Positions 25,228 through 30,631 of a DNA stretch of 36,355 bases are shown here, in pieces; the stretch's first letter is position 1; each line of letters begins with the position of its first letter. The DNA is from an uncultured Pelagibacteraceae bacterium (GTDB lineage Bacteria; Pseudomonadota; Alphaproteobacteria; Pelagibacterales; Pelagibacteraceae), in assembly GCA_902590625.1 (NCBI GenBank), contig CACIXL010000009.1:1-36355 (forward strand), given 5' to 3'. The position numbers and the translations under genes are program-made. The notes under the pieces are model-generated. The model worked only from the letters and a program-made list of their open reading frames with translations. It had not been told where the DNA came from and ran no database searches.

Positions 25228-26058
25228 TTGGATATTCTTTTTCAACCAGAAACTCTTTATCTAATTATAATAATGGTCATCACAGCTATCCCTGCCGGGT
25301 TTGCTGCAGGTTTATTCGGTATCGGGGGAGGGTTAATCACTGTACCAATACTATTTTATATTTTTGGCGCAGCTGGTATCGAGCCAGAGTTTCTAATGCA
25401 TTTAGCTGTGGGAACTTCATTTGGAATAATTATCCCAACTTCAATTGTATCAGTCTTAACCCATCATCAGCATAATGCAGTCGATTTTAGCGTAGTGAAA
25501 GGTTATGGAGTATTTGTTATTATTGGAGTTATACTTGGTACTATTTTAGCTGCTGGTTTAAAAACAAAACCTTTAATATTATTTTTTACTATTGTTGTTT
25601 ATATTCTCGCTTTTTATTTATTATTTTTAAAAGAAAAAGAGTCAGATCTTTCAATAAAAATGGGTCTACCTGCTAAAATTATTTCCGGGATCATAACAGG
25701 ATTTATTTCAGCTCCTATGGGTATAGGCGGTGCAGTAATGAATGTTCCGATTTTAAAGTTTTTTGGTTATCCAATAAATAAAGCGATAGGAAGTGCAGCT
25801 GCTATAGGTTTTATAATAGCTTTGTTTGGAACGATTGGTTTTCTTTTTTCAGGCAATTATTTGAACGCTAATTTACCTTTAAGTATTGGATTTTTAAATA
25901 TTCCAGCATTTTTAATATTCTTTCCAATCACAGCATTTATGGCAAGGTTAGGAGCAAAAGCTAGCCATAGAATTAATAAGAAAAAGATGACGAAATATTT
26001 TGGATTATTTTTAATAGTTATAGGTTCTAAATTTTTATACGAGTATTTTAATCTTTAA
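25228..26058 (+). CDS. TauE/SafE-family permease
   Basis: A 276-residue inner-membrane protein with about eight helices. It shows the internal duplication of the family: GFAAGLFGIGGGLITVPIL in the first half and GFISAPMGIGGAVMNVPIL in the second. HLAVGTSFGIIIPTSI and GSAAAIGFIIALFG are the paired following helices. Members export or import sulfite, sulfoacetate or other organosulfur anions, and the substrate here is unknown. The start is TTG at 25228, two bases after dusA; a later ATG (25273) would cut the first helix, so TTG is preferred. The 3' end overlaps the convergent gene by 4 bases. Confidence 0.85.
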   Translation: MDILFQPETLYLIIIMVITAIPAGFAAGLFGIGGGLITVPILFYIFGAAGIEPEFLMHLAVGTSFGIIIPTSIVSVLTHHQHNAVDFSVVKGYGVFVIIGVILGTILAAGLKTKPLILFFTIVVYILAFYLLFLKEKESDLSIKMGLPAKIISGIITGFISAPMGIGGAVMNVPILKFFGYPINKAIGSAAAIGFIIALFGTIGFLFSGNYLNANLPLSIGFLNIPAFLIFFPITAFMARLGAKASHRINKKKMTKYFGLFLIVIGSKFLYEYFNL

Positions 26059-27497
26059 ATTTTTTGGTCGTATTCACCAATTTTTCCAGTTTCTTGTAAT
26101 AATTTATCTATAAAATCAAAAATATTTTTCTTTCTTTCGTTTGAAGTGGGGCTTTCAGTAACTACGACAAGAGAAGGTTTATTCGATGAAGCTCTAATTA
26201 AACCCCAAGATCCATCTGTTAAAGAAAACCTTACTCCGTTAACCGTTAAAACTTCTGTGATAGACTGATTATCTATTTGAATATTCTGTTTTTTTAGATC
26301 TTCAACTTTTTTAACCATTTCCTCTACCACTTTATACTTCTCTTCATCTTTGCAGAATGGAGCCATAGTTGGAGATTGATATGTTTTGGGTAACTCATTA
26401 ATGATTTCGCTCATCTTCTTATTGTGATTAGTTAATAAATGACAAACTTGTATCGCTGAATTTATTCCATCATCATATCCGTATCCTAAAGGTTGATTAA
26501 AAAAGAAATGACCGCTTTTTTCAAATCCTGCTAAAGCTTTTTCTAGATTTACTTTTCTTTTAATGTGTGAGTGTCCAGTCTTCCAATAAATTGTCTTACA
26601 GTTATTTCCTAAAAGAACTTTATCTTTAGCATAAAGACCTGTTGATTTTACATCCACAACGAATTTTGAGTTTTGATGTTTAGAGGCTAAGTTTCTAGCA
26701 ATTAGTAATCCTATTTTATCAGAGTATATTTCATCTCCTTTATCATCAATTACCCCACATCTATCACCATCTCCATCAAAACCAAATCCAACATCTGCAT
26801 TGTTTTCTTTTACTGCTTTTCTTATTGCGTGAAGCATTTCAAGATCTTCAGGGTTTGGGTTATATTTTGGAAAAGACCAGTCTAGATTACAATCTAATTC
26901 TATCACTTCGCAACCAATCCCTCTTAAGATTTCAGGTGCAAAAACTCCCGCTGTTCCATTACCACAAGCAACAACGGCTTTAATTTTCTTACTGATCTTA
27001 TTTTTTTTTATTAAATCATTTGCATAGACATTCTTAAAATTATCTATTTTTTTAAGTGAACCTTTCCCTTTAATAAATTTTTTATTTAAGGTGATTTCTT
27101 TTAATTCACTCATTTCTTCAGGAGCATGAGTTAATCCTTTTTTGATACCCATTTTTACTCCAGTCCAACCATTTTCATTATGACTAGCCGTAACCATTGC
27201 TATGGCATCAGAATTTAAATTAAACTGTGCAAAGTAAACAGTAGGAGATAATGATAAACCTATATCTTCAACACTACACCCAGTGGATGCTAAACCATTG
27301 ATTAAAGCCTTTTTTATAGACTCACTGTAGGACCTGTAATCATGACCCACTATCACTCTTGGATTTGTTTTTTTTGTATGGTTTATTATTTGAGAACCCA
27401 GTCCTTTTCCTAAATCAGTGATTCCCTCTAAATCGATGTCTTTTTCATAAAGCCACCTTGCGTCATACTCTCTAAAACCGTTTGGATTAATTTTCAT
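26055..27497 (-). CDS. Phosphomannomutase/phosphoglucomutase (alpha-D-phosphohexomutase)
   Basis: A 480-residue protein of the ManB/AlgC type. The four domains show their landmark loops: NPNGFREYDARW at the N-terminus, phosphoserine S105 in TASHNENGWTGVKMG, the metal loop D241-G-D243-G-D245-R in GFGFDGDGDR, the sugar-binding loop GFEKSGHFFF, and a C-terminal phosphate-binding segment VRFSLTDGSWGLIRASSNKPSL. It interconverts hexose-6-phosphate and hexose-1-phosphate, giving mannose-1-P or glucose-1-P, the precursors for the RmlA and GDP-sugar reactions in the surface island. The substrate split between glucose and mannose is not readable. It diverges from nrdA over a 186-base gap. Confidence 0.9.
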   Translation of the reverse strand: MKINPNGFREYDARWLYEKDIDLEGITDLGKGLGSQIINHTKKTNPRVIVGHDYRSYSESIKKALINGLASTGCSVEDIGLSLSPTVYFAQFNLNSDAIAMVTASHNENGWTGVKMGIKKGLTHAPEEMSELKEITLNKKFIKGKGSLKKIDNFKNVYANDLIKKNKISKKIKAVVACGNGTAGVFAPEILRGIGCEVIELDCNLDWSFPKYNPNPEDLEMLHAIRKAVKENNADVGFGFDGDGDRCGVIDDKGDEIYSDKIGLLIARNLASKHQNSKFVVDVKSTGLYAKDKVLLGNNCKTIYWKTGHSHIKRKVNLEKALAGFEKSGHFFFNQPLGYGYDDGINSAIQVCHLLTNHNKKMSEIINELPKTYQSPTMAPFCKDEEKYKVVEEMVKKVEDLKKQNIQIDNQSITEVLTVNGVRFSLTDGSWGLIRASSNKPSLVVVTESPTSNERKKNIFDFIDKLLQETGKIGEYDQKI

Positions 27498-27560
27498 GAA
27501 CTATAAATACTAGAGAATATAGGCTTTTGTTATTAAATGTTTATTAACAAAACTTTCCAC

Positions 27561-27589
27561 TTGCAAAAATATTTAAATGTTCTTATAAT
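27561..27589 (+). promoter_or_regulatory. Sigma-70-type promoter for nrdAB
   Basis: TTGCAA at 27561-27566 (four of six -35 bases) and a perfect TATAAT at 27584-27589 are separated by 17 bases, the ideal spacing. Transcription would begin near 27596, giving an ~88-base leader before the nrdA ATG at 27684. The two NrdR-like boxes lie just downstream of this start point, well placed to block transcription. Confidence 0.65.
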
Positions 27590-27602
27590 GTTCTATTGAT
27601 TT

Positions 27603-27618
27603 AGATGTTATATAGTAT
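27603..27618 (+). promoter_or_regulatory. NrdR-box-like site 1 (weaker)
   Basis: AGATGTTATATAGTAT matches about 11 of 16 positions of the NrdR-box consensus as I recall it (aCaCwAtATaTwGtgt), including the central ATATaG core. Its start is 31 bases before that of the stronger box. Three helical turns is the spacing reported for paired NrdR boxes, which is the main reason for calling it. Confidence 0.5.
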
Positions 27619-27633
27619 ATTAACTATATTGTA

Positions 27634-27649
27634 ACACAACATATAGTTG
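27634..27649 (+). promoter_or_regulatory. NrdR-box-like site 2 (stronger)
   Basis: ACACAACATATAGTTG matches about 13 of 16 positions of the recalled NrdR-box consensus. It lies in the nrdA leader, ~38 bases downstream of the inferred transcription start and 35 bases before the start codon. NrdR represses ribonucleotide reductase genes when dATP is high. The nrdR gene itself is not in this window. Confidence 0.6.
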
Positions 27650-27683
27650 TTTTGTTAATAAATCGAAGCAAATAAGTAAAAAT

Positions 27684-29633
27684 ATGAATAAAAACGTATC
27701 ATTGGCAATAGAGAAAGCTGTCGGCAGTATAGGCCAGAAGCACCATAATGATCAAAGAAATAATGGTCCTAAAAAACCTGATTTATTCTCTTTATCAGGT
27801 GAAACGGAACTATTTCAAAATGAGAGAGGCATTACGATTAAGATCGACAGATCTAGAGATGCCAATTTAACTGATTTTGGTAAAGCTACTCTTAAAGACA
27901 GATACCTGGGTCAGAACGAGAGTTTTCAAGATTTATTTGCAAGAGTGGCAAGTGTATATGCTGATGATAATTTACATGCGCAAAGAATTTATAACTACAT
28001 AAGTAATTTATGGTTCATGCCTGCAACACCAGTTTTGTCGAATGGTGGAACAGAAAGAGGCTTACCTATTTCATGTTTTCTAAACGAAGCCAATGATAGC
28101 TTAGAAGGAATAACAAATCTTTGGGAGGAAAATGTTTGGCTTGCTGCAAGAGGCGGAGGTATAGGAAGCTATTGGGGCAACTTAAGATCTATCGGTGAAA
28201 AGATTGGTAAGGTTGGAAAAACTTCTGGAATAATCCCATTTATTAAAGTAATGGACTCTTTAACTTTAGCTATCAGCCAAGGTTCTTTAAGAAGAGGTTC
28301 AGCAGCTTGTTATTTACAAATTGATCATCCTGAAATCGAAGAGTTTATTGAAATGAGAAGACCAACCGGTGGAGATGTAAATAGAAGATCACTCAACTTA
28401 CATCATGGCGTATTGGTTACAGATGAATTTATGAGAGCTGTAGAAACAGGAGATCAGTGGGCATTGAGAAGTCCTTATGATGGAACAGTTCAGTCAACTA
28501 TTCCTGCAAGAAATTTATGGATTAGATTATTGACAGCAAGAATTGAAACAGGAGAACCTTATATAGTTTTCATTGATACAGTTAATAGACAAATACCTCA
28601 ACACCATAAACTAGCTGGTTTAAAAGTTAAAACATCTAACCTTTGTAGCGAAATCACTTTACCAACTGGTCAAGACAATGAAGGCAATCAAAGAACAGCC
28701 GTTTGTTGTTTATCATCCTTAAACTTAGATACTTATGATCAGTGGAGTAATGATCCTCAGTTTGTCGAGGATGTGATGAGATTTTTAGACAATGTAATGA
28801 CTGACTTCATTAATAGAGCGCCAGATGAATTTGCCCACGCAAAATATTCTGCAATGAGAGAAAGAAGTGTTGGTCTTGGTGTTATGGGTTTACATTCTTT
28901 CTTCCAACAAAAAAATATTCCTTTTGGTTCTGTGATGAGCAAAGTTTGGAATAAAAAAATATTTAAAAATATTCAGGAGAAAGTTGATGCAGCCTCAGCC
29001 AGCTTGGCAGAAGAAAGAGGAGCTTGTCCGGACGCAGCAGAATATGGAATAAAAGAAAGATTTTCTAATAAAACAGCAATAGCTCCAACAGCATCAATTT
29101 CAATTATCTGTGGTGGTTCATCACCAGGAATTGAACCTATTGCAGCTAATAGTTATACGCATAAGACTTTGTCAGGTTCTTTTAACGTTAGAAATAAATA
29201 TCTTAAGAAACTTCTTCAAAAATATAAAAAAGACACTGATGAAGTTTGGTCTAGTATTACGACTAACCAAGGTTCGGTGTCTCATTTAGAATTTTTAACT
29301 GCTGAGGAAAAAGACACTTTCAAAACAGCATTTGAAATAGATCAAAGATGGGTAGTGGAACTAGGGGCAGATAGAACTCCTCACATTTCACAAGCCCAAT
29401 CAGTAAATATATTTATACCTGCAGATATACATAAGAAAGACTTGCATGATCTTCATTTTCAAGCTTGGAAAAAAGGATTGAAAAGCCTTTATTACTGCAG
29501 ATCTAAATCAATCCAAAGAGCCGAGAATGTAAACAACGCATCACAAACTGATGTAACTAAGAACGTTTATTCTAACGGACAAAAATCAAATAATGAGTCA
29601 AATAACTATGAGGAGTGTTTATCATGTCAGTAG
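27684..29633 (+). CDS. nrdA: Ribonucleoside-diphosphate reductase alpha subunit, class I, without N-terminal ATP-cone
   Basis: A 649-residue catalytic subunit reducing ribonucleoside diphosphates. The active site has redox cysteines C131 (LPISCFLN) and C341 or C342 (TAVCCLSSLNL), thiyl-radical C321 with N319 and E323 (SNLCSEI), the radical-transfer pair Y603-Y604 (SLYYCRS) and the C-terminal shuttle pair C645-L-S-C648. PTASISIICGGSSPGIEP is the usual phosphate loop. E. coli NrdA is ~761 residues with an N-terminal ATP-cone; here the ~70 residues before KDRYLG show no cone motif, so the overall activity site seems missing. It forms an operon with nrdB, overlapping it by 10 bases. Confidence 0.94.
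   Translation: MNKNVSLAIEKAVGSIGQKHHNDQRNNGPKKPDLFSLSGETELFQNERGITIKIDRSRDANLTDFGKATLKDRYLGQNESFQDLFARVASVYADDNLHAQRIYNYISNLWFMPATPVLSNGGTERGLPISCFLNEANDSLEGITNLWEENVWLAARGGGIGSYWGNLRSIGEKIGKVGKTSGIIPFIKVMDSLTLAISQGSLRRGSAACYLQIDHPEIEEFIEMRRPTGGDVNRRSLNLHHGVLVTDEFMRAVETGDQWALRSPYDGTVQSTIPARNLWIRLLTARIETGEPYIVFIDTVNRQIPQHHKLAGLKVKTSNLCSEITLPTGQDNEGNQRTAVCCLSSLNLDTYDQWSNDPQFVEDVMRFLDNVMTDFINRAPDEFAHAKYSAMRERSVGLGVMGLHSFFQQKNIPFGSVMSKVWNKKIFKNIQEKVDAASASLAEERGACPDAAEYGIKERFSNKTAIAPTASISIICGGSSPGIEPIAANSYTHKTLSGSFNVRNKYLKKLLQKYKKDTDEVWSSITTNQGSVSHLEFLTAEEKDTFKTAFEIDQRWVVELGADRTPHISQAQSVNIFIPADIHKKDLHDLHFQAWKKGLKSLYYCRSKSIQRAENVNNASQTDVTKNVYSNGQKSNNESNNYEECLSCQ
29611..29615 (+). promoter_or_regulatory. 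Shine-Dalgarno sequence for nrdB inside nrdA
   Basis: AGGAG at 29611-29615 lies 8 bases before ATG 29624, within the last codons of nrdA. This spacing is optimal and decides the nrdB start in favour of 29624; the in-frame GTG at 29615 would itself be part of the ribosome-binding site. Confidence 0.75.
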
Positions 29634-30631
29634 CAGAAAAAATTAAGCCAGGAATTATCCAGCCAAAAAAGATGGGATTATTAGTAGAAAATCCAGTTTA
29701 TAAACCATTTAGATATCCTTGGTGTTATGATGCTTGGTTAACGCAACAAAGAATTCACTGGCTACCAGAGGAAGTACCACTCGGAGATGATGTTAGAGAC
29801 TGGCAGAAAAATTTATCTGTAGAAGAAAAAAATTTACTAACTCACATTTTTAGATTTTTTACACAAGCAGATGTTGAAGTTAACAACTGTTATCTAAGAC
29901 ATTACACAACTGTGTTTAAACCTACAGAAGTACTAATGATGATGACTGCGTTTGCAGCTATGGAGACAGTTCATATCGCTGCTTACTCTCATTTATTAGA
30001 TACAATCGGAATGCCAGAAACAGAATACTCTGCTTTTATGAAGTATAAAGAAATGAAGGATAAATATGATTATATGCAAGGATTTGATGTTAAATCAAAA
30101 CATAACATCGCAATGACAATGGCTGTATTCTCTGCATTTACAGAAGGACTTCAGTTATTCGCGAGTTTTGCAATACTTCTAAACTTTCCAAGATTTAACA
30201 AAATGAAAGGAATGGGACAAATCGTAACTTGGTCTGTAAGAGATGAAACTCTTCACTGTAACTCAATGATCAGATTATTTAAAGATTTTATCAAAGAAGA
30301 ACCACAAATCTGGAATGATAAATTAAAAAATGAAATTTATGAAGCTTGTAAAACAATTGTTCATCATGAAGATGCATTTATTGATTTAGCTTTTCAAATG
30401 GGTCCTTTAGAAGGATTAACTGCGGACGAAATTAAACAGTACATTAGATTTATTGGAAATAGAAGACTTGAACAATTAGGTCTTGAACCAATTTATGATG
30501 TTAAGAAAAACCCTTTAACTTGGTTAGACAATATGTTGAATGGTGTAGAACATATGAATTTCTTCGAAGGACGAGCAACTGAATATTCTAAAGCTTCAAC
30601 TAAAGGTAGTTGGGGCGAAGTATTTGCTTAA
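29624..30631 (+). CDS. nrdB: Ribonucleoside-diphosphate reductase beta subunit, class I
   Basis: A 335-residue ferritin-like radical-generating subunit. Metal ligands are D83 (TQADVEV), E114 and H117 (METVHIAAYS), E174 (FTEGLQL), and E208 and H211 (RDETLHCN). Y121 lies seven residues after E114, the same offset as tyrosyl-radical Y122 from E115 in E. coli NrdB, so a stable Tyr radical is expected. The C-terminus (residues ~310-335) would dock on NrdA. The stop abuts the convergent znuA stop with no intergenic base. Confidence 0.95.
   Translation: MSVAEKIKPGIIQPKKMGLLVENPVYKPFRYPWCYDAWLTQQRIHWLPEEVPLGDDVRDWQKNLSVEEKNLLTHIFRFFTQADVEVNNCYLRHYTTVFKPTEVLMMMTAFAAMETVHIAAYSHLLDTIGMPETEYSAFMKYKEMKDKYDYMQGFDVKSKHNIAMTMAVFSAFTEGLQLFASFAILLNFPRFNKMKGMGQIVTWSVRDETLHCNSMIRLFKDFIKEEPQIWNDKLKNEIYEACKTIVHHEDAFIDLAFQMGPLEGLTADEIKQYIRFIGNRRLEQLGLEPIYDVKKNPLTWLDNMLNGVEHMNFFEGRATEYSKASTKGSWGEVFA

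Follow-up and report, generated by a model that had tools for sequence, protein, structure and literature searches.

Predicted LexA and NrdR Control of the nrdAB Promoter in SAR11 Bacteria

Introduction

Bacteria of the SAR11 group rank among Earth's most abundant cells, and they possess few regulators. In a stretch of SAR11 (Pelagibacteraceae) DNA of 36,355 bases, hereafter the window, taken from an assembly of 754,096 bases that is 69.61% complete, the ribonucleotide reductase genes nrdA and nrdB follow a 186-base intergenic stretch (27498–27683) that is common to nrdA and a divergent gene. The features of the locus are as follows:

27561–27566, + strand: -35 hexamer TTGCAA of the nrdAB promoter
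27579–27593, + strand: LexA/SOS-type operator GTTC-TTATAAT-GTTC, predicted from sequence, overlapping the -10
27584–27589, + strand: -10 hexamer TATAAT, inside the LexA-type box, with a 17-base spacer from the -35
27603–27618, + strand: NrdR box 1 (upstream), AGATGTTATATAGTAT, only the right half conserved
27634–27649, + strand: NrdR box 2 (downstream), ACACAACATATAGTTG, the stronger box, with C4 and G13 present
27684–29633, + strand: nrdA, large subunit of class I ribonucleotide reductase, 649 aa, ATP-cone match absent
29615–30631, + strand: nrdB, small subunit of ribonucleotide reductase, likely true start ATG at 29624

The 5′ end of nrdB overlaps the 3′ end of nrdA (29615–29633), and the ATG at 29624 is codon 4 of the ORF as called. 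The product of the divergent gene (26055–27497) resembles, by eye, a phosphomannomutase/phosphoglucomutase, and this gene might also respond to LexA or NrdR bound in the common intergenic stretch. An nrdA match is found in 111 of 127 near-complete family genomes; for the 16 genomes with no match, another reductase or assembly gaps are possible.

The Promoter

An earlier note on this DNA had proposed a TTGCAA-17-TATAAT promoter, and this element is present at 27561–27589, where it agrees with the sigma-70 hexamers at 10 of 12 positions. The 186 intergenic bases contain four sigma-70-like matches, of which this one is the best; shuffled versions of this stretch give a mean of 2.1 sigma-70-like matches scoring at least 9. 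Among the 123 SAR11 upstreams that have the LexA box, 122 carry a TTG 12–22 bases 5′ of it. The start site fitting this -10 would fall at about 27595–27598, and any such start would place both NrdR boxes downstream of it, as had been claimed. The sequence TATTGAT at 27594–27600, right after the second GTTC, is largely kept among relatives and may mark the start site.

The NrdR Box Pair and Its Conservation

The two NrdR boxes were scored against the NrdR consensus ACACWATATATWGTGT. Box 1 matches it at 11 of 16 positions, chiefly in the right half and with T instead of C at position 4, while box 2 matches at 13 of 16; an alternative register of box 1 restoring C4 was sought by eye and not found. 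The box starts (27603 and 27634) are 31 bp apart, which corresponds to a 15-bp spacer and three helical turns. At a summed score of at least 24 and a spacing of 30, 31 or 32, this pair stands alone on both strands of the window, being scored once per strand because the consensus is palindromic; the two NrdR-like boxes 31 bases apart described in the earlier note are thus borne out as the top-scoring such pair.

For conservation, 139 nrdA loci and the window gave 125 distinct upstreams, and 124 remained once L044, whose contig starts within nrdA, had been set aside. In every one of the 124 the GT of box 1 (G13-T14) is followed at a distance of exactly 31 bp by the GT of box 2, and the core of box 2 is likewise present in 124 of 124, with a search pattern that included the variant of relatives L014 and L033, seen beforehand. 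In these two relatives the usual box 2 is replaced by ACACTATATATAGTAT, which matches the consensus at 15 of 16 positions and so argues that NrdR reads box 2. In 103 sequences anchored on box 2, and therefore partly by construction, C4 and G13 of box 2 both have a frequency of 0.98; in the same sequences the right half of box 1 shows T11 at 1.00 and G13, T14 and T16 at 0.98 each. Over all 124 upstreams, box 1 has G13 in every one and C4 in only three; its left half is variable, conservation extends past the box, and the region reads TTGTATA in L167 and is TAGTATA-like in the others. Conservation in relatives, on which the earlier note had staked both boxes, therefore holds for box 2 and for the right half of box 1, while the left half and C4 of box 1 have mostly been lost.

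These features of box 1 allow a different reading, in which box 1 has ceased to function, NrdR acts through box 2 by itself or with little cooperativity, and the conserved TAGTATATTAA is kept for another factor or for the region of the start site. The rarity of C4, the variable left half and the conservation running beyond the box all fit such a loss, as does the altered second zinc knuckle of SAR11 NrdR described below. However, the GT pair is kept in every upstream at 31 bp, the spacing that NrdR pairs have been reported to prefer, and high-affinity NrdR binding is described in the same source as needing two boxes (PMC12051234). We consider the loss of box 1 unlikely, though it deserves attention. 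In S. coelicolor, NrdR binding has been reported to depend strongly on conserved G-C pairs within the boxes (PMC9110341), and SAR11 box 1 mostly lacks the C4 that belongs to such a pair.

NrdR and dATP Sensing

Regulation by NrdR presupposes an nrdR gene, and its absence is excluded by a match to TIGR00244 of 163.8 bits against a cut-off of 124.65 (L001, 1351–1812, outside the window). The gene has glyA upstream, 7 bases away, and ribD downstream (names by eye), and it is found in 86 of 99 family genomes searched, including 40/40 near-complete ones. With the spacing and the gene taken together, NrdR control of nrdAB is well supported as a prediction.

The SAR11 protein departs from other NrdR proteins in its second zinc knuckle. 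Of 31 loci (the genome's own and 30 family loci listed, L333–L362; one unparsed), 25 have CxC there and 5 have CC, whereas CxxC is present in 29 of the 30 NrdR loci that score best among other alphaproteobacteria (one unparsed). The second knuckle is also CxxC in the solved and aligned NrdR structure 9fzf, which is presumably E. coli NrdR. The zinc ribbon of two CxxC pairs by which NrdR is recognised is therefore not found in the parsed SAR11 loci, yet the whole protein scores above the NrdR cut-off.

The only ATP-cone match found in the 69.61%-complete genome is in nrdR, and NrdA has none, so dATP feedback on the SAR11 reductase may rest on transcription, a conclusion that is tentative with an incomplete genome.

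A LexA-Type Operator on the -10

The proposal of NrdR regulation thus stands on its NrdR side, with an nrdR gene and an invariant box spacing, but it overlooked a LexA-type operator lying on the -10, so NrdR by itself would not account for this promoter. LexA of alphaproteobacteria has been described as having the motif GTTC-N7-GTTC (PMC8565304), which is also reported to be the exact consensus in Caulobacter (PMC12907096). This motif is exact in 123 of the 124 distinct SAR11 nrdA upstreams, the lone exception being L070, whose first half is TTTC; at spacings of 3–6 and 8–12, the GTTC repeat occurs in none of the 124. Between the two halves, the seven bases occur in 19 different versions in the relatives, all of which look AT-rich and -10-like by eye, and 79–93 bases separate the end of the box from the ATG, so that the nrdA box looks like two fixed half-sites around a promoter element.

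The window would be expected to hold 0.43 such sites. Genome-wide, GTTC-N7-GTTC is not enriched, with 13 sites in this genome versus 9 for the reversed control and 133 versus 277 in ten complete relatives; similarly, the GTAC variant has 4 sites versus 9 in its reversed control. The case for the LexA box therefore rests on its position and conservation.

Three of the 13 sites in this genome are intergenic, namely those at lexA (GTTCTATAAAAGTTC, directly upstream), at the umuDC operon (GTTCTTGTTTTGTTC, just 5′ of umuD) and at nrdAB; the remaining ten are inside reading frames, one of which is a short, rpsO-like frame at L120. The genome encodes lexA (TIGR00498, 166.7 bits) as well as recA, and lexA is found in 84 of 99 family genomes and in 40/40 near-complete ones. 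The box lies upstream of lexA in 30/30 family loci, the best-scoring of the 84 genomes, and a scan of 27 recA loci shows a GTAC-N7-GTTC form on the reverse strand in 25, with two unparsed. Coordinate comparison in complete genomes places the site at lexA in 10/10 and at nrdA in 8/8 with listed nrdA coordinates. In this genome the GTAC-N7-GTTC variant occurs at recA and as a second site at lexA. This second LexA-like site overlaps the lexA start region (L117/L125/L365), and it is kept as GTWY-N7-GTTC in 28/28 parsed family loci.

The Two Sites in Other Alphaproteobacteria

The comparison outside the family comprised 87 of the 95 strong nrdA matches listed, some of them from the same genus and not all independent; 8 weaker full-length matches and 3 fragments were left out. 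Pairs with C4 and G13 in each of the two boxes are spaced by 31 in 42 of these 87 upstreams and by 32 in 14, and any other spacing from 20 to 44 occurs in at most 7. Since 31 is the dominant spacing in this outside set, the NrdR spacing rule is supported independently of the SAR11 data.

GTTC-N7-GTTC was found in 16 of the 87 outside upstreams (9 forward, 7 reverse), versus 1.75 on average and at most 6 when the 87 upstreams were shuffled; the exact box is absent from the other 71. At each of the other spacings from 3 to 12, in either orientation, the GTTC repeat occurs in 0–3 of the 87, and the reversed controls CTTG and CAAG in 0–6. By the threshold used, 13 of the 16 upstreams with a LexA box also carry the 31-bp NrdR pair. 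Three of the reverse sites (G395, G414 and G531) lie 214–234 bases before the NrdR pair and that of G396 lies after it; with these four off the promoter, operators at promoters number 16 at most.

These data bear on a second alternative, namely that NrdR alone controls nrdAB and that the GTTC repeats are parts of the promoter, such as an extended -10 and a discriminator, to which LexA does not bind. The halves flank the -10, so promoter constraint could preserve them, conservation continues beyond the second GTTC (mostly as TATTGAT), and Vibrio cholerae offers a precedent of a LexA-like sequence that LexA left unbound (PMC5963079). However, it is the two halves that are fixed in SAR11 while the letters between them vary; the same motif with the same spacing stands at lexA and umuD, where the neighbouring sequence is different; and outside the family the seven-base spacing recurs in either orientation, whereas every other spacing is rare. 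Control by NrdR alone is accordingly regarded as distinctly improbable.

Finally, that the NrdR boxes are chance AT-rich palindromes can hardly be credited and was rejected: the genome is AT-rich and single boxes scoring 11 are common (156 in the window), but no equal pair occurs in the window at spacings 30–32, and 30 windows generated by a first-order Markov model, scanned on one strand at spacing 31, contain none reaching a summed score of 24, so the pair exceeds chance. Its sequence and spacing are kept both within the window's own genus and across loci of 12 further genera.

Expression during Phage Infection and Iron Limitation

Published expression data are in keeping with joint control: it has been reported that, when the SAR11 strain HTCC1062 is infected with phage HTVC027P, nrdA rises 3.12- to 8.87-fold and nrdB 2.53- to 5.83-fold, and that host recA, lexA, umuD and umuC rise as well (PMC12753301). 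As described there, no nrd genes were found in the phage, and in the section concerned the authors attribute the rise of nrdAB to phage nucleotide demand, with no link drawn to LexA (PMC12753301). Many other host genes were raised too (PMC12753301), so the co-induction of nrdAB with the SOS genes is weak evidence; the induction of nrdAB could also come from dATP depletion acting via NrdR alone, or from infection in general. In addition, a study of iron limitation describes lexA, recA and mucA together in a late cluster (PMC2864753).

A Model of Dual Repression

The gene pair nrdAB is probably under dual control, with LexA over the -10 and NrdR just downstream; actual binding, the start site and the way in which the repressors combine are the conjectural parts of this model. 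In it, two repressor systems would be stacked on a sigma-70 promoter before nrdAB. LexA bound to GTTC-N7-GTTC over the -10 would exclude RNA polymerase; DNA damage or phage-induced single-stranded DNA would activate RecA, LexA would cleave itself, and the promoter would be freed. NrdR with dATP and ATP would bind the box pair, at about +6 to +53, when dNTPs are plentiful, and would there block initiation or early elongation. Full expression of nrdAB would then need both repressors off, that is, an SOS signal together with low dATP. The earlier note had favoured repression of the roadblock type; with NrdR bound as a tetramer at about +6 to +53, a block of initiation would be just as feasible as one of elongation. 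Dual control itself is more certain than the detailed roles of box 1 and of the changed zinc ribbon in NrdR. The full picture, with a core SOS reductase throughout SAR11, a promoter answering to damage or phage plus low dATP, NrdR as the sole ATP-cone protein found, an asymmetric operator made of a full box 2 and half of box 1, and a rebuilt knuckle (CxC/CC), is put forward tentatively and is, taken as a whole, somewhat doubtful.

If the model is true, a family-wide LexA operator on nrdAB would put dNTP supply into the SAR11 damage response, and the joint rise of host nrdAB with recA, lexA and umuDC under a pelagiphage lacking nrdAB would have a possible reason that needs no phage-encoded factor. 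Because certain other alphaproteobacteria carry this motif in front of nrdA as well, the rule may be broader, in contrast to V. cholerae, where no binding of LexA was seen.

Comparison with Known Systems

Among the publications consulted, none was seen to describe LexA control of nrdAB in Alphaproteobacteria or a SAR11 LexA or NrdR regulon, though earlier descriptions may exist. The predicted, conserved LexA–NrdR promoter would be a variation on known regulation.

On the SOS side, a close precedent concerns V. cholerae, where nrdA has been reported to be induced by mitomycin C and to have a sequence resembling a LexA site, although in that work no binding of LexA to this promoter was observed (PMC5963079). 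SAR11 is similar in having a LexA-like sequence at nrdA and a rise of nrdAB under phage infection (PMC12753301), and differs in that the test of LexA, with its negative outcome, belongs to V. cholerae. The SAR11 arrangement shares with alphaproteobacterial LexA/SOS operators the exact motif, which is also found at lexA and umuDC, and the GTAC variant at recA; unlike them, its predicted target is a ribonucleotide reductase operon.

On the NrdR side, E. coli nrdAB, Listeria nrdAB and S. coelicolor nrdRJ resemble SAR11 nrdAB in having nrdR and two 16-bp boxes with a 15-bp spacer, and for E. coli nrdAB a candidate NrdR box has already been described that lies downstream of its promoter (PMC12176259). 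The SAR11 system differs from these three in that box 1 mostly lacks its left half-palindrome and C4, the second zinc knuckle of NrdR is shortened or shifted, and the -10 is covered by a LexA-type box.
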